From Rathayibacter sp. VKM Ac-2804 (GTDB lineage: Bacteria > Actinomycetota > Actinomycetes > Actinomycetales > Microbacteriaceae): DNA of 64,000 bases. Under the pieces are notes generated by a model. That model was not told the DNA's origin, ran no database searches, and saw nothing but the letters and a program-made list of their open reading frames with translations. This document shows positions 23,655 through 29,874 of this stretch, in pieces. The stretch is from assembly GCF_009866655.1 (NCBI RefSeq), contig NZ_CP047420.1, positions 868,001 through 932,000 on the forward strand. Direction: 5' to 3'. Every line of letters starts with the position of its first letter. Position 1 is the stretch's first letter. The translations under genes were made by a program, and so were the position numbers.

Positions 23655-23660
23655 TACGGT
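23655..23660 (+). promoter_or_regulatory. -10 hexamer TACGGT for the amide-ligase trio (leaderless)
   Basis: TACGGT ends six nt before ATG 23667. No ribosome site precedes that ATG, which fits leaderless translation of the first gene of the three-gene unit. Confidence 0.5.
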
Positions 23661-23666
23661 GAGCGC

Positions 23667-26174
23667 ATGCGCGCAGAACTGACCCTCGGTGCGGAGGAGG
23701 AGCTCCACCTCATCGATCTCGAGTCGAGGCAGCTCTCCCCCCACGCCCCCCAGGTGCTCGCCCGGCTGCCGAAGGAGAGCTTCTCGGCCGAGCTGCAGCG
23801 GACCACGGTCGAGACGAACACCGCGGTGGTCGACTCCCTCGACGGGCTGCGCGAGCAGCTGATCTCGCTTCGGCGCGCGGTGATCGACGCCGCGGCGCCC
23901 GACGGCATCGGCATCGCCGCGGTCGGCACCGCGCCGCGCTCCGAGCAGACCGACTTCGAGCTCACCAGCACCGGCCGCTACGGCCGGATGCAGGAGCAGT
24001 ACCGGATGCTGGTGGACGAGCAGCTGATCTGCGGCACCCAGATCCATGTCGGCGTCTCCGACCGCGAGCTCGCGGTGCAGATCGCGCAGCGGATCGCCCG
24101 CGATCTGCCGGTGCTGCTCTCCGCCAGCGCGAGCAGCCCCTACTGGAACGGCCAGGACACCGGCTACGCCAGCATCCGCACGATCATCTGGCAGCGCTGG
24201 CCGAGCGCCGGCGCGACCGGGCCCCTGGAGTCCGCGGCCGAGTACGACCGCCTCCTCGACGACCTGATCGCCACCGGTGTCATCGCCGACTCGAAGATGG
24301 CCTACTTCGACGTCCGGCCCTCCTCGCACGCGCCGACCCTCGAGCTGCGGGTCTGCGACGCGATGCCGATCGTCGACGACGCGGTGCTGATCGCCGGGCT
24401 CTTCCGCGGCCTGGTCCGCACCGCCGAGCTCGACATCGAGGCGGGCCGTCCGTTCCGGCACACCCCGCCGCCGATCCAGCGCGCCGCCACCTGGCAGGCC
24501 GCGCGCGGCGGTCTCTCCGGCCCGCTGCTCGATCACACCGAGCACCCCCGTCCGGTTCCCGCAGCCGAGGCGCTGCGCAGCCTGATCGCCCGCCTCCAGC
24601 CCGCGCTCGACGAGCTCGGCGACCTGGAGCAGGTGCGCGCGCTCGCCGAGGCGCTGATCGCGCGCGGCAACTCCGCCGACCGCCAGCGCGCCGTCCTCGC
24701 CGAGCGCGGCACCCTCGACGCCGTGGTCGACGCCGTCGTCGCCGAGACGCACGGCCCGGCGAGCGGACCGATCCTGCCCGCCCCGAGCCTGCGCTCCTAC
24801 CGCGTGCGCGCCGGCGACGAGGCCGTGGCCACCGGCGGCCGCGCCAGGAGCGCGTACCAGCCGATCCTCGAGCACTTCCGCGGGCTCGGCGCCGAGCGGC
24901 TCGCCACCCTGCACGAGTCCCGCGACCGGCTCGTCGAGCAGGCCGGGCTCACCTTCCGCGTCGGCGAGGAGGACCGGCCGTTCCCGGTCGACCTCGTGCC
25001 GCGCGTGCTGCAGGCGCACGAGTGGAGCGAGCTCGCCGCCGGGCTCGAGCAGCGCGCCCGCGCCCTCGAGTGCTTCCTCCAGGACGTCTACGGCGAGGGC
25101 CGGGCGGTGCGGGCCGGCGTGGTCCGCGATCTGCGCGGCGCGCCGGGCTGGAGCGAGGACGCGGCCCGGCTGCCCGCCGGCACCGTCCGCGGCGCCGTGA
25201 TGGGCTTCGACCTGGTCCGCAACGAGTTCGGCGGCTGGCGGGTGCTGGAGGACAACCTCCGCAACCCCAGCGGTCTCGCCTACGCGATGGGCATCCGCGC
25301 GCTGCTCGACGACGTGCTGCCCGATCTGCCGCGGCCCGCGGGCCTGCTCGACGCGTCGACGGCGCTCGCCGGACTGCGCGCCACCCTCGCCCACGGCGCG
25401 AAGGGCGCCGACCCGGTGCTCGGGCTGCTCTCCAGCGGAGCGTCGAGCTCGGCCTGGTTCGAGCACCGCCGCCTGGCCGAGGGCGCGGGGCTCCTGCTGC
25501 TCGAGGCGGGCGACCTCGCGGTCGAGGGCGGCCGCGTCCTGGCCGGCGGCACGGTCGTCGACGCGCTCTACCTGCGGCTCGACGTCGAGCTCGCCGACCT
25601 CGTCGCGGGCGGGAGGGGGATCGGCCGCGAGATCCTCGACGTCGCGGCGGCCGGCGACGTGTACCTGGCGAACGCGCCCGGCAACGGCGTCGCGGACGAC
25701 AAGGCGCTCTACTGCGCGGTTCCCGAGCTGATCGGCTACTACCTCGACGAGCGCCCGCTGCTCGAGTCCGTGCCGACCTACCGCCCCGAGGACGAGGCCG
25801 AGCGCCGGATCGTGCTCGAGCGGGTCGGCGAGCTGGTCACCAAGCCGGTCGACGGCTACGGCGGCCGGGGAGTGATGATCGGCCCGTCGTCCCCAGCGGC
25901 GCGCGTCGCCGAGCGGCGCGCCGAGATCGCGGCGGACCCGGGCGCCTGGGTCGCCCAGGAGGTCGTCCGGCTCTCCTCGCTGCCCGCCTTCTCCGGCACC
26001 GACCTGCAGCCGCGGCACATCGACCTCCGCGCCTTCGTCTTCGTCACCGGCACCGGACCCGGCGACGTCCGCCTCGCCGACCTCGCGCTCACTCGCGTCG
26101 CGGCCGAGGGCAGCATGATCGTGAACTCCTCGCGCGGCGGCGGCGCGAAGGACACCTGGATCGTCGGAGGCTGA
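23667..26174 (+). CDS. Bifunctional GCS2-type carboxylate-amine ligase / circularly permuted ATP-grasp
   Basis: This 835-residue two-domain enzyme starts with a YbdK/GCS2 glutamate-cysteine-ligase-like domain (~1-370): GAEEELHLID, ELQRTTVETNT, CGTQIHVGV, SSPYWNGQDTGYASIR, and DVRPSSHAPTLELRVCD. From ~385 to the end it matches circularly permuted ATP-grasp proteins (DUF404/DUF407): RPFPVDLVPRVLQAHEW, FLQDVYGEGRAV, GWRVLEDNLRNPSG, LANAPGNGVADDKALY, VTKPVDGYGGRGVMIGP and VNSSRGGGAKDTWI. Both domains activate carboxylates with ATP and join them to amines, so two successive peptide or amide bonds are likely. The amidotransferase follows after one base and an S9 peptidase after that. Substrates are unknown; an unusual osmolyte or small peptide amide is my inference. 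Confidence 0.88.
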   Translation: MRAELTLGAEEELHLIDLESRQLSPHAPQVLARLPKESFSAELQRTTVETNTAVVDSLDGLREQLISLRRAVIDAAAPDGIGIAAVGTAPRSEQTDFELTSTGRYGRMQEQYRMLVDEQLICGTQIHVGVSDRELAVQIAQRIARDLPVLLSASASSPYWNGQDTGYASIRTIIWQRWPSAGATGPLESAAEYDRLLDDLIATGVIADSKMAYFDVRPSSHAPTLELRVCDAMPIVDDAVLIAGLFRGLVRTAELDIEAGRPFRHTPPPIQRAATWQAARGGLSGPLLDHTEHPRPVPAAEALRSLIARLQPALDELGDLEQVRALAEALIARGNSADRQRAVLAERGTLDAVVDAVVAETHGPASGPILPAPSLRSYRVRAGDEAVATGGRARSAYQPILEHFRGLGAERLATLHESRDRLVEQAGLTFRVGEEDRPFPVDLVPRVLQAHEWSELAAGLEQRARALECFLQDVYGEGRAVRAGVVRDLRGAPGWSEDAARLPAGTVRGAVMGFDLVRNEFGGWRVLEDNLRNPSGLAYAMGIRALLDDVLPDLPRPAGLLDASTALAGLRATLAHGAKGADPVLGLLSSGASSSAWFEHRRLAEGAGLLLLEAGDLAVEGGRVLAGGTVVDALYLRLDVELADLVAGGRGIGREILDVAAAGDVYLANAPGNGVADDKALYCAVPELIGYYLDERPLLESVPTYRPEDEAERRIVLERVGELVTKPVDGYGGRGVMIGPSSPAARVAERRAEIAADPGAWVAQEVVRLSSLPAFSGTDLQPRHIDLRAFVFVTGTGPGDVRLADLALTRVAAEGSMIVNSSRGGGAKDTWIVGG

Positions 26175-26175
26175 G

Positions 26176-27960
26176 ATGTGCGGCATCGCGGGAGAGATCC
26201 GGTTCGACGGCGCGCGCGCCGACATCGGCGCCGTCGACCGGATGACCGGCTGCCTCGTGCACCGCGGCCCGGACGGCGACGGGCTCTGGGCGGCGGGCCG
26301 CGTGGCGCTCGGGCACCGGCGGCTGGCGATCATCGACCTCTCGGCGGCCGGCGCGCAGCCGATGGTCGACGCCGCACTCGGCCTCACGATCGTCTTCAAC
26401 GGCTGCATCTACAACCACCGGCAGCTGCGCGTCGAGCTGGAGGGGAAGGGGCACCGCTTCTTCTCGCACTCCGACACCGAGGTGATCGGCAAGGCCTACG
26501 CCCAGTGGGGCGAGGACTGCGTCGACCACCTGCTCGGCATGTTCGCCTTCGCGATCGTCGAGCGCGAGTCCGGCCGGGTGGTGCTGGCGCGCGACCGCCT
26601 CGGCATCAAGCCGCTCTACCTCGACGAGACCCGCGAGCGGATCCGCTTCGCCTCGACCGTGCAGTCCCTGCTCGCGGCCGGCGGCGTCGACACCTCGATC
26701 GACCGCACGGCGCTGATGCTCTACCTGAGCTTCCACTCGGTCGTGCCCGCGCCGCGCACGATCCTCGCCGGGGTCACCAAGCTGCCGCCCGCGACCGTCC
26801 GCGTGATCGAGCCCGACGGCACGAGCCGCGAGCGCGTCTACTGGGAGCCGGTGTTCGCCCGCGATCCCGCCCGCGCCGCCTGGACCGAGCGCGACTGGCA
26901 GGAGGCGCTGCTCGCGTCCTTCCGCACCGCCGTCTCGCGCCGGATGGTCGCCGACGTCCCGGTCGGCGTGCTGCTCTCCGGCGGCATCGACTCCAGCCTG
27001 ATCGTGGCGCTGCTCGCCGAGGCCGGCCAGACCGGGCTGCAGACCTTCTCGATCGGCTTCGACGCCGCGGGCGGCGAGTCGGGCGACGAGTTCGAGTACT
27101 CGAGCCTGGTCGCCGAGCGCTTCGGCACCGACCACCACCGCCTGCCGATCGACTCCGCGCGGCTGCTGCCCGGGATCGACGCCGCGGTCGGCGCGATGAG
27201 CGAGCCGATGGTCTCGCACGACGCCGTCGCCTTCCACCTGCTCAGCGAGGACGTCTCGCAGCACGTCAAGGTCGTCCAGTCCGGCCAGGGCGCCGACGAG
27301 GTGCTCGGCGGCTACGACTGGTACCCGCCGCTGGCGCGGGTGCCGCGCGAGAACGCCGCCGAGGCGTACGCGGACGTCTTCGTCGACCGCCCCTTCGCCG
27401 CGCTGCAGGCCCTGCTGTCGCCCGCTTGGCGCGGGGACGCCGACGCGGCGGCCGCCTTCCTCGCCGAGCGCTTCGCCCGCCCCGGCGCCGACACGGCGGT
27501 GGACGCCGCGCTGCGCAACGACACCGCGGTCATGCTCGTCGACGACCCGGTGAAGCGGGTCGACAACATGACCATGGCCTGGGGCCTGGAGGCGCGCGTC
27601 CCGTTCCTCGACCACGAGTTCGTCGAGCTCGTCGGCACGATCCCGCCGGAGCTCAAGCTCGCCGACGGCGGCAAGGGGATCCTCAAGCGGGCCGTCCGCG
27701 GCATCGTCCCGGACGAGGTGATCGACCGCACCAAGGGCTCCTTCCCGGTGCCCGCGATCCGGCAGCTGGAGGGGCCCTACCTCGAGCGGGTGCGGGCGGC
27801 GCTGACCGACCCCGCCGCGCGGCGCCGCGGGATCTTCGATCCGGCGACAGTGGACGCGCTGCTGGCCGACCCGAACGCGACCCGCACCCGCCTGGGCTCG
27901 AACGAGCTGTGGCAGCTCGCCCTGCTCGAGATGTGGCTCCAGGAGCACGGCGTCGGCTGA
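26176..27960 (+). CDS. Asparagine-synthase-type amidotransferase (NAGGN-amidotransferase-like)
   Basis: This 594-residue protein has an N-terminal class II glutaminase domain: MCGIAGEIRFDG with nucleophile Cys2, RLAIIDLS, FNGCIYNH, and HSDTEVI. The AsnB-type synthetase domain has PP-loop SGGIDSS at ~268, GQGADEVLGGY and MAWGLEARVPFLDHEFVEL. Length, the GEIRFDG start and the C-terminal NELWQLALLEMWLQEHGV resemble, from memory, the amidotransferase of the N-acetylglutaminylglutamine amide osmolyte pathway rather than plain AsnB. It would turn a terminal carboxylate into an amide with glutamine-derived ammonia and ATP. ATG lies one base after the ligase stop, so the two are coupled. The usual N-acetyl ligase partner is absent; the GCS2-ATP-grasp fusion stands in its place. 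Confidence 0.88.
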   Translation: MCGIAGEIRFDGARADIGAVDRMTGCLVHRGPDGDGLWAAGRVALGHRRLAIIDLSAAGAQPMVDAALGLTIVFNGCIYNHRQLRVELEGKGHRFFSHSDTEVIGKAYAQWGEDCVDHLLGMFAFAIVERESGRVVLARDRLGIKPLYLDETRERIRFASTVQSLLAAGGVDTSIDRTALMLYLSFHSVVPAPRTILAGVTKLPPATVRVIEPDGTSRERVYWEPVFARDPARAAWTERDWQEALLASFRTAVSRRMVADVPVGVLLSGGIDSSLIVALLAEAGQTGLQTFSIGFDAAGGESGDEFEYSSLVAERFGTDHHRLPIDSARLLPGIDAAVGAMSEPMVSHDAVAFHLLSEDVSQHVKVVQSGQGADEVLGGYDWYPPLARVPRENAAEAYADVFVDRPFAALQALLSPAWRGDADAAAAFLAERFARPGADTAVDAALRNDTAVMLVDDPVKRVDNMTMAWGLEARVPFLDHEFVELVGTIPPELKLADGGKGILKRAVRGIVPDEVIDRTKGSFPVPAIRQLEGPYLERVRAALTDPAARRRGIFDPATVDALLADPNATRTRLGSNELWQLALLEMWLQEHGVG

Positions 27961-27981
27961 CCGGTGCCCGAGGATGGAGGC

Positions 27982-29874
27982 ATGACGTCTCTTCTCACCG
28001 ATCCGCTGCCGGCCGACCGCCTGGCCGCTGCCGAGGAGCTCGCGCTCGGGCTCGTGCACGCCTGGGGCAGCTGGGGCCCGACGATGACCCCGGACGCCGC
28101 CCGCGTCGCCTTCCTCAGCGACCGCGGCGGAGCCCCCGAGGTCTGGGTGCAGGACGTCGTCGTCGGCGCGGAGCCGCCGGAGGCGCGCCGCATCGCCCTC
28201 ACCGAGGACCCGGTGCTCGAGGTCTCCTGGTCCGCCGACTCCGCCTGGCTGGCCTGCCTCGTCGCGACCGACGGCGGCGTGCGCACTCAGGTCTGGGTCG
28301 TGCGGCCCGACGGCACCGATGCCCGCCGCATCGCCGGCTCCCGCGACGCCCACGCCGAGCTCGGGCCGTGGACGCGCAGCGGCCACCACGTCGTCGTCAC
28401 GATCCCGTCGGCCGAGCCGGAGCAGCCGAGCCGCTCGTTCCTCGTCGACCCGGTGACGGGGGAGCGGAATCCGCTCGTCGACGGCGACCTGATCTCGGTG
28501 CTCGACCTCTCGGTCGAGGAGCGCCTCGTCGTGGTCCGCGACGGCCAGCGCGGCCAGCAGTACTGCGTGGTCGTCGACCGGCTGACCGACGAGAACCACG
28601 CCCTCCTGCCCGACTCGGGCACCGGCTCGACGGACGTCGCGCTGCTGCGCCCCTCGCCGCTGCACGACACCGAGAGCCCGATGGTCGCCTACCTCGCGAC
28701 CGACGTCGACCTGCCGCGGCGCCAGCTGGTCGCGATGCCGCTGGGCCCGGACGGCTGGCGCGGCCGGATCCGCCGCCTCGCCGCCCGCGACGACGCCGAG
28801 CTCGAGGGGCTGGACGCCGACGACGCCGGCCGGATGCTGATGCTGGTCTGGAACGTCGCGGGCTCGAGCGAGATCGAGCTGCTCGACACCACCACCGGCG
28901 AGCGGGTCCCGGTCGCCGGACTGCCGGGGCTGGTGGCCACGACGCCGGTGCTCTCCCGCGACGGCGGCGCCGTGATCCTGGGCGTCGAGGGCCCGGAGCG
29001 CCCCCGCGAGCTGTGGCGGCTGGACACGGCGAGCCACGAGTGGTCGCGGATCACCGGGGTGCCGGCGCTCGACGCGCCGCCGCTGATCGTGCCGACGCTC
29101 GAGCACTTCCAGGGCCGCGACGGCCTCGCGCTCTCCGGCTGGCTCTACCGCGCACCAGGGGCGACGGGGTCGGGACCGGCGATGCTCAGCCTGCACGGCG
29201 GTCCGGAGTCGCAGGAGCGGCCCACCTTCTCGGCGCAGCATCAGGCGGTCGCCGCCGCGGGGATCACGGTCTTCGCGCCGAACGTGCGCGGCTCCTCGGG
29301 CTTCGGGCGCGACTTCGTGCATGCCGACGACGTCGAGAAGCGCCGCGGAGCCTTCGACGACGTCCTCGCCGCCGCCGAGCACCTCGTCGACGCCGGGATC
29401 GCCGACCCGGCGCGCATCGCCGTCACCGGCCGCTCCTACGGCGGCTACCTCACCCTCGCGTCGCTGGCCTTCTCGCCCGGTGTCTTCGCCGCCGGCGTCG
29501 ACATCTGCGGCATGTCGCACCTGCAGACCTTCTACCGCGACACCGAGCCGTGGATCGCCTCGGCCGCCGTCACCAAGTACGGGCACCCCGAGCACGACGC
29601 GGAGCTGCTGGAGGAGCTGTCGCCGCTGACCGCGGCCGACGCGATCGACGTGCCGCTGCTGGTGGTGCACGGCGAGCTCGACACCAACGTGCCGCTCGGC
29701 GAGGCCCGGCAGATCGTCGCGGCGCTCGAGGAGCTCGGCCGCCCGGTCCGCTACCTGCAGCTGGACGGCGAGGGCCACGAGTACCGCCGCGCCGACTCGA
29801 AGGAGGCGCTGCTGCGCGAGCTGCTGCAGTTCCTCACCGAGGCCCTCGCCGCCCCGCCCCTGCTGGTCGAGTAG
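27982..29874 (+). CDS. S9-family (prolyl oligopeptidase-type) peptidase
   Basis: ATG 27982 (GAGGA seven nt upstream) is preferred to GTG 27964; it gives 630 residues. The first ~370 residues are repeated beta-propeller blades (WSADSAWLACLV, WVVRPDGTDARRIAG and similar). The C-terminal alpha/beta hydrolase has oxyanion segment SLHGGPE, nucleophile Ser485 in GRSYGGY, Asp567 in HGELDTNVP and His599 in GEGHEYRR, a complete triad. Members release dipeptides or acyl-amino acids from short peptides. As third gene of the trio it could recycle the product of the two upstream enzymes, as an M42 peptidase does beside NAGGN genes. Its last three residues and stop are written by a palindromic repeat. Confidence 0.88.
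   Translation: MTSLLTDPLPADRLAAAEELALGLVHAWGSWGPTMTPDAARVAFLSDRGGAPEVWVQDVVVGAEPPEARRIALTEDPVLEVSWSADSAWLACLVATDGGVRTQVWVVRPDGTDARRIAGSRDAHAELGPWTRSGHHVVVTIPSAEPEQPSRSFLVDPVTGERNPLVDGDLISVLDLSVEERLVVVRDGQRGQQYCVVVDRLTDENHALLPDSGTGSTDVALLRPSPLHDTESPMVAYLATDVDLPRRQLVAMPLGPDGWRGRIRRLAARDDAELEGLDADDAGRMLMLVWNVAGSSEIELLDTTTGERVPVAGLPGLVATTPVLSRDGGAVILGVEGPERPRELWRLDTASHEWSRITGVPALDAPPLIVPTLEHFQGRDGLALSGWLYRAPGATGSGPAMLSLHGGPESQERPTFSAQHQAVAAAGITVFAPNVRGSSGFGRDFVHADDVEKRRGAFDDVLAAAEHLVDAGIADPARIAVTGRSYGGYLTLASLAFSPGVFAAGVDICGMSHLQTFYRDTEPWIASAAVTKYGHPEHDAELLEELSPLTAADAIDVPLLVVHGELDTNVPLGEARQIVAALEELGRPVRYLQLDGEGHEYRRADSKEALLRELLQFLTEALAAPPLLVE

Follow-up and report, generated by a model that had tools for sequence, protein, structure and literature searches.

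A recurring actinobacterial unit of GCS2 ligase, TIGR03104 amidotransferase and S9 peptidase that looks like a second route to a small capped peptide amide

Genes and domains of the unit

The window, that is the whole stretch of 64,000 nucleotides that was analysed, corresponds to contig positions 868001-932000 of the 4.09 Mb genome of Rathayibacter sp. VKM Ac-2804. Between its positions 23667 and 29874, three open reading frames (ORFs) follow each other in tight order, all on the + strand: a ligase, an amidotransferase of the AsnB type and a peptidase of family S9 (Table 1). The first-pass annotation had read them as one unit headed by a bifunctional ligase, with a gap of 21 bp in front of the peptidase gene. 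Both points were confirmed. The gap holds when the in-frame ATG at 27982 is used as the alternative start of the S9 gene, and Pfam places a GCS2 domain (residues 7-280) and the CP_ATPgrasp_2 domain in one 835-aa ORF.

Table 1. Features of the unit, with coordinates given in the window
Feature	Position	Strand	Remarks
Ligase gene, GCS2 (gamma-glutamyl ligase fold) fused to circularly permuted ATP-grasp	23667..26174	+	835 aa
GCS2/YbdK-type domain, about residues 1-363	23667..24755	+	NF010041 above cut-off; nearest solved chains 1r8g, 1tt4 (YbdK type)
CP_ATPgrasp_2 domain, residues 445-812	24999..26102	+	PF14403, 322 bits; nearest solved chain 3n6x
AsnB-type amidotransferase, TIGR03104 family, GCS2-linked clade	26176..27960	+	594 aa
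Partner-tracking motif R570-T-R-L-G574-S-N of the amidotransferase	27883..27903	+	NAGGN copies mostly [LI]-T-P-L-R-G
S9 (prolyl-oligopeptidase-type) peptidase	27964..29874	+	636 aa from GTG 27964; PF00326, 157 bits
-10-like element TACGGT	23655..23660	+	6 nt ahead of the ligase ATG; predicted leaderless promoter

In NCBIfam, the ligase scores 371 bits with NF010041 (cut-off 332) and 255 bits with TIGR02050 (cut-off 176), which assigns it to the YbdK type. Of the models, NF010041 fits the GCS2 protein of the window best, as it does that of the Streptomyces form described below; the window genome has a second GCS2 gene, which scores best with other models. YbdK/GCS2 ligases and circularly permuted ATP-grasp proteins each account for one half of the ligase (see the solved chains in Table 1), but here the two halves are parts of one protein, encoded next to an amidotransferase and an S9 peptidase. 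The motifs E528-D-N530, K726-P-x-D-G, D786-L-R and N820-S-S-x-G-G-G-x-K-D-T-W are conserved in at least 97% of a set of 139 fusion proteins, consisting of the best 120 of 936 database matches, the window's own protein and 18 from the loci described below; the same level of conservation is reached at 200 ligase positions. The ligases of the window and of Rathayibacter sp. VKM Ac-2857 share 99% identity.

The amidotransferase is composed of GATase_7 and Asn_synthase domains (Pfam). Its earlier placement in the family that serves the synthesis of N-acetylglutaminylglutamine amide (NAGGN) is borne out by a score of 942.4 bits with TIGR03104, for which the NCBIfam cut-off is 570.1. In the third protein the Peptidase_S9 domain spans residues 420-628 (Pfam), and Ser491, Asp573 and His605 are presumably its catalytic triad.

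The NAGGN trio consists of the amidotransferase AsnO (TIGR03104), the ligase Ngg (TIGR03103) and an M42 peptidase (TIGR03106), and it is known in Sinorhizobium, Azospirillum and Pseudomonas (PA3459-PA3461). The unit resembles this trio in its TIGR03104 amidotransferase, which is well above the cut-off, in the order of roles (ligase, amidotransferase, peptidase), and in having a ligase of two catalytic parts, one of them an ATP-grasp. It differs in that GCS2 stands where Ngg has GNAT, the ATP-grasp is circularly permuted (and missing from some loci) whereas that of Ngg is RimK-like, the peptidase is S9 instead of M42, and the amidotransferase belongs to a sister clade with R570 and G574. The claim that ligase and peptidase are both replaced was upheld, as TIGR03103 has no match at E<=1e-50 anywhere in the window genome and the third gene of the unit is S9 and not M42. 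Ngg acetylates one glutamine and joins a second, which AsnO amidates (PMC8070244), and NAGGN has been isolated from a Micromonospora that is reported to have asnO and ngg (PMC8146288).

Upstream boundary and recurrence

The element in front of the ligase gene was compared over the 54 ligase loci described below, minus L016 and L055. All 51 distinct upstream sequences have the pattern TAnnnT, 6-8 nt ahead of the start codon of the ligase, whereas 0 of 38 distinct internal amidotransferase starts of the same loci have it; as background, it precedes 133 of the 6501 + strand ATGs there. Probably it serves as the -10 element for a leaderless mRNA, which would give the unit its own promoter. Six Rathayibacter sequences (the window and L003-L007) are alike over the ~45 bp that precede the ligase ATG, although they differ in the genes further upstream. 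Such an element was also seen before 15 of 27 distinct NAGGN amidotransferase starts.

The gene upstream of the unit belongs to Na_H_Exchanger (Pfam, 150 bits vs 26) and stays below the TIGR00831 cut-off (201 vs 279.6 bits). This Na+/H+ antiporter had been offered as a clue to the role of the unit, and the clue was lost on comparison: in the 8 kb upstream that were examined, the antiporter is present in L003 and L005 and absent from L004, L006 and L007, with too little upstream sequence in L008 to judge. Since it is an inconstant neighbour even in Rathayibacter, and since the -10-like element suggests that the unit begins at the ligase, the antiporter was rejected as a member. Neighbouring ORFs of at least 100 aa were also clustered, and the top 25 clusters were partly classified. 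Besides the unit, one family, ABC-ATPase-like by eye, occurs in 5 compared groups; among these clusters no other family occurs in more than 2 compared groups, and no osmotic-stress gene was seen to recur beside the unit.

Species genomes were scanned with the ligase alone, which gave 54 loci. Ligase, amidotransferase and S9 peptidase occur together at 41 of them (L008 and L055 by partial matches). Three loci have ligase and amidotransferase without S9 (L019 and L039 on short contigs, L018 in the stretch examined), one has the GCS2 half with S9 (L049), and at nine only the ligase was found in the stretch examined, including L048, which is cut by its contig, and L051 with the GCS2 half only. L049 and L051 are the Naasia and Agreia loci, in which the ligase match is limited to that half. 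A TIGR03104 search in 10 of the 13 genomes lacking the full set recovered the adjacent copy of L018; of the other nine genomes, two have a copy elsewhere and seven have none (E<=1e-60).

In a survey sample of 296 genomes of the class, TIGR03104 is above the cut-off in 97 genomes (98 copies), TIGR03103 in 46, and the ligase is matched at E<=1e-100 in 44. Thirty of the 44 strong ligase matches lie on the same strand within 5 kb of a TIGR03104 copy and 14 are not near one; by a rough estimate, well under one such pairing would be expected if the genes were scattered at random over genomes of several Mb. With 41 of the 54 ligase loci complete as well, the genes co-occur more than by chance, and the unit is found in several, distant actinobacterial families; the restriction to one species that the first-pass annotation had named as a refutation is not seen.

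When the 98 amidotransferase copies are taken as the starting point, 45 have TIGR03103 on their own strand at a distance of up to 5 kb, 30 have the GCS2 ligase, none has both and 23 have neither at the thresholds given above. Counted as fusions among the 30 are G277 and G177, with a match to the GCS2 half only in open frames of 883 and 1077 aa, which could accommodate the fusion, and G203, which is cut by its contig. The flanks of all 23 remaining copies were re-examined by tblastn, and it was found that 3 have the fusion, 1 has only a C-terminal piece of the fusion (G169), 14 have GCS2 without ATP-grasp, 3 have S9 only and 2 have none of these. The totals are 45 copies of NAGGN type, 34 of fusion type, 14 GCS2-only, 3 S9-only and 2 with none, so that 48 of the 98 copies are GCS2-linked (34 fusion and 14 GCS2 alone) and no copy adjoins both ligases. 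The recurring core is GCS2, amidotransferase and S9 peptidase, and the ATP-grasp half is missing from a second form, for which records named as Streptomyces, Embleya and Nonomuraea are examples.

The peptidase follows the same division. S9 adjoins the amidotransferase in 29 of the 34 non-NAGGN loci with long flanks (it is absent from L131, L132, L137, L147 and L148) and in 0 of 8 loci with NAGGN-type amidotransferase, 5 of which have M42. With the S9 protein as the query, 17 of 20 genomes were matched (E<=1e-30), and the best match is beside an amidotransferase or ligase in 16 of these 17. One S9 relative with 42% identity (L205, G167:C1 ~114900) is far from the NAGGN-type amidotransferase of its genome. 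Genome G283 has the fusion type, though many genomes of the same coded genus (g18) carry the NAGGN type; the types can therefore replace each other. Judged from these sequences, the unit is a widespread relative of the NAGGN trio with exchanged partners, and the analogy drawn in the first-pass annotation is retained for the conserved trio, the amidotransferase family and the swapped ligase and peptidase, though not for the antiporter.

Some loci depart from both arrangements. G055 is the only genome with both ligases, which lie at different places, and it has no TIGR03104 copy at E<=1e-180. Three frames flanking its Ngg gene (L161, G055:C6) gave no amidotransferase, and its GCS2~ATP-grasp ligase is followed by S9, also without amidotransferase. 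The latter arrangement, with S9 directly behind the ligase, is that of L157, L158, L160 and L207, all from coded family f31. A GCS2-only unit is annotated on a plasmid, p1 of Streptomyces fungicidicus (L142), where an OsmC-family gene precedes it and a gene for a SpoIIE phosphatase follows.

Trees and partner-tracking residues

The amidotransferase set excluded matches below 500 bits, those starting after residue 10, and those with stops or shorter than 560 aa, leaving 113 loci, including overlapping loci of one genome. For the tree with outgroup, sequences at least 92% alike were removed, which gave 74 family rows, and 7 AsnB-type relatives from 5 of 8 carrier genomes served as the outgroup (the partial L190 was left out). 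In this tree, built by a quick method and with long outgroup branches, all 74 family rows stand apart from the 7 AsnB-type rows (SH-aLRT 97); a grouping with ordinary asparagine synthetase, which the first-pass annotation had also listed as refuting, is thus not seen. The 23 NAGGN rows are on one branch (SH-aLRT 94) and 49 GCS2- or S9-linked rows on another (89). A careful tree without outgroup, covering 53 of the 74 rows, gave supports of 93/83 and 91/68 for the two sets, neither of which the program starred. With moderate support, the GCS2-linked amidotransferases thus appear to be the sister group of the NAGGN ones, and the window protein falls in the sister clade, outside the NAGGN clade (93/83). 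The first branches within the TIGR03104 family in the tree with outgroup are L131 (8816-10600) and L132 (8797-10581), copies with neither known ligase nor S9 adjoining; ten frames chosen from their flanks were scanned with Pfam, and no third type of ligase came up.

The two sets are discriminated by 9 of 594 positions under the criteria used, mostly at 528-529 and 570-577, and 130 positions are invariant over the 74 sequences. R570 and G574 are each present in 49 of 49 GCS2-linked rows, and in the NAGGN rows position 570 is [LI] in all 23 and position 574 is R in 21, so that RTxxGxN vs [LI]TPLRG could serve as a motif test for the two types of amidotransferase. The fixed differences may reflect descent alone. 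Compared with asparagine synthetase B (TIGR01536), the family shares the domains, Cys2, the SGG.DS loop and Lys520. It differs in its separate branch, in Cys (or Met/Ile) at 77, where Glu is found in 7 of 7 ordinary relatives, and in Gln at 371, where 5 of 7 have Glu. From the near-identical core and Q371, the acceptor is likely to be of the same C-terminal kind as in NAGGN synthesis.

The GCS2 domains were compared for 67 chosen loci and the window. Those of fusion and GCS2-only units form one group of 64 rows (support 95), outside of which are four more distant GCS2 pieces and the second GCS2 gene of the window genome. Within the group, the ATP-grasp half is present in some units and absent from others, and so is the amidotransferase.

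Proposed product and its alternatives

The conserved unit looks like a second route to a small capped peptide amide. In the reading that we prefer, for which we put the case for and against about level, the unit is self-contained and both makes and turns over a gamma-glutamyl-capped glutamine (or glutamine-peptide) amide. The GCS2 domain would activate the gamma-carboxylate of glutamate and couple an amino acid, most likely glutamine. Some units lack the ATP-grasp half, which for this reason most likely contributes an additional bond; in the fused form it would form a second amide bond. The TIGR03104 amidotransferase would then convert the C-terminal carboxylate to an amide with glutamine as the ammonia donor, and the S9 peptidase would degrade the product again. 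The candidate products are gamma-Glu-Gln-NH2 for GCS2-only units and gamma-Glu-Gln-Gln-NH2 for the fusion. Known GCS2 enzymes form gamma-glutamyl bonds, and the ligase family suggests a gamma-glutamyl start of the product, although the GCS2 fold by itself is not proof of gamma-glutamyl transfer. Because ATP-grasp is missing in 14 of 98 copies and S9 in 5 of 34 loci, and because some genomes with the ligase are free of the amidotransferase, no single chemistry is forced.

A role as a compatible solute is plausible as one use of the putative product. A more specific form of the preferred reading takes the unit as a domain-by-domain counterpart of Ngg-AsnO (GCS2 for GNAT, circularly permuted ATP-grasp for ATP-grasp) that makes new gamma-glutamyl-capped glutamine-peptide amides as compatible solutes in place of NAGGN in many actinobacteria, including Microbacteriaceae and Streptomyces; we regard this as a tentative possibility. 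In Frankia, genes of the asnO type have been connected with osmotic stress or tolerance of salt (PMC5768760; PMC5563000, by gene content only), and in the former paper FRAAL1888 and FRAAL2171 are up under PEG, though the ligase type in Frankia may differ. PMC5563000 gives for Frankia casuarinae a locus in the order asnO-peptidase-'ngg', with an asnO more than 60% identical to others and an 'Ngg' with less than 15% identity to known Ngg, which was classed as NAGGN; the ligase family is unnamed, and the locus may or may not be this unit. Among the matches listed in a search of the open-access literature by titles and abstract starts, no unit of GCS2-CP-ATP-grasp, TIGR03104 and S9 is described. 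The neighbourhoods of amidoligases were reportedly surveyed by Iyer in 2009, and related ones may appear there.

An alternative is that the product is unchanged, with the GCS2 ligase in the place of Ngg and N-acetylglutaminylglutamine amide still being made through acetylation by an enzyme encoded elsewhere. The small number of discriminating positions and the public annotation, in which such copies are called NAGGN amidotransferase, agree with it. Against it, Pfam finds no acetyltransferase domain in the three genes, none was seen among the widely recurring neighbours (ORFs of at least 100 aa, top 25 clusters, partly classified), the amidotransferases divide according to their partner ligase and differ at fixed positions, and GCS2 enzymes are known for gamma and not alpha glutamyl bonds. 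We therefore consider an unchanged product unlikely. If the product does differ, the NAGGN label that the database gives to GCS2-linked copies, where seen, may be misplaced, it would be unsafe to claim NAGGN production from such genomes, and a class of metabolites common in soil and plant actinobacteria would have been overlooked.

The unit may also belong to specialised metabolism or peptide modification, its product being an amidated peptide for signalling, metal binding, defence or protein tagging. The best NCBIfam matches of the S9 protein include the lasso peptide isopeptidase NF033523, but at 70.7 bits, far below the cut-off of 400. The resemblance of the promoter-like element to a housekeeping -10 and the lack of a recurring osmotic-stress gene among the clusters described above would suit such a role. 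On the other hand, the ABC-ATPase-like family seen in 5 groups is the only hint of a recurring transporter or regulator in those clusters of ORFs of at least 100 aa, a length at which short precursor peptides escape, and in NAGGN synthesis the amidotransferase family acts on a free dipeptide; a specialised role is thus improbable as well.

That an ordinary glutamate-cysteine ligase and an asparagine synthetase are adjacent by chance is a very remote prospect: the database name is glutamate--cysteine ligase, the amidotransferase is above the TIGR01536 cut-off (433 vs 267 bits) and it is the only PF00733 (Asn_synthase) protein found in the genome, but the ligase scores 24.3 bits with the EgtA glutamate-cysteine ligase model TIGR03444 (cut-off 370.8), the genome has its second GCS2 gene, 13 listed genomes of the same family have no TIGR03104 copy at E<=1e-180, and the unit recurs in many families. 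An ordinary asparagine synthetase was rejected in view of the tree and of the genome itself, which has no AsnRS above the cut-off and has GatB, a combination that fits tRNA-dependent asparagine formation.
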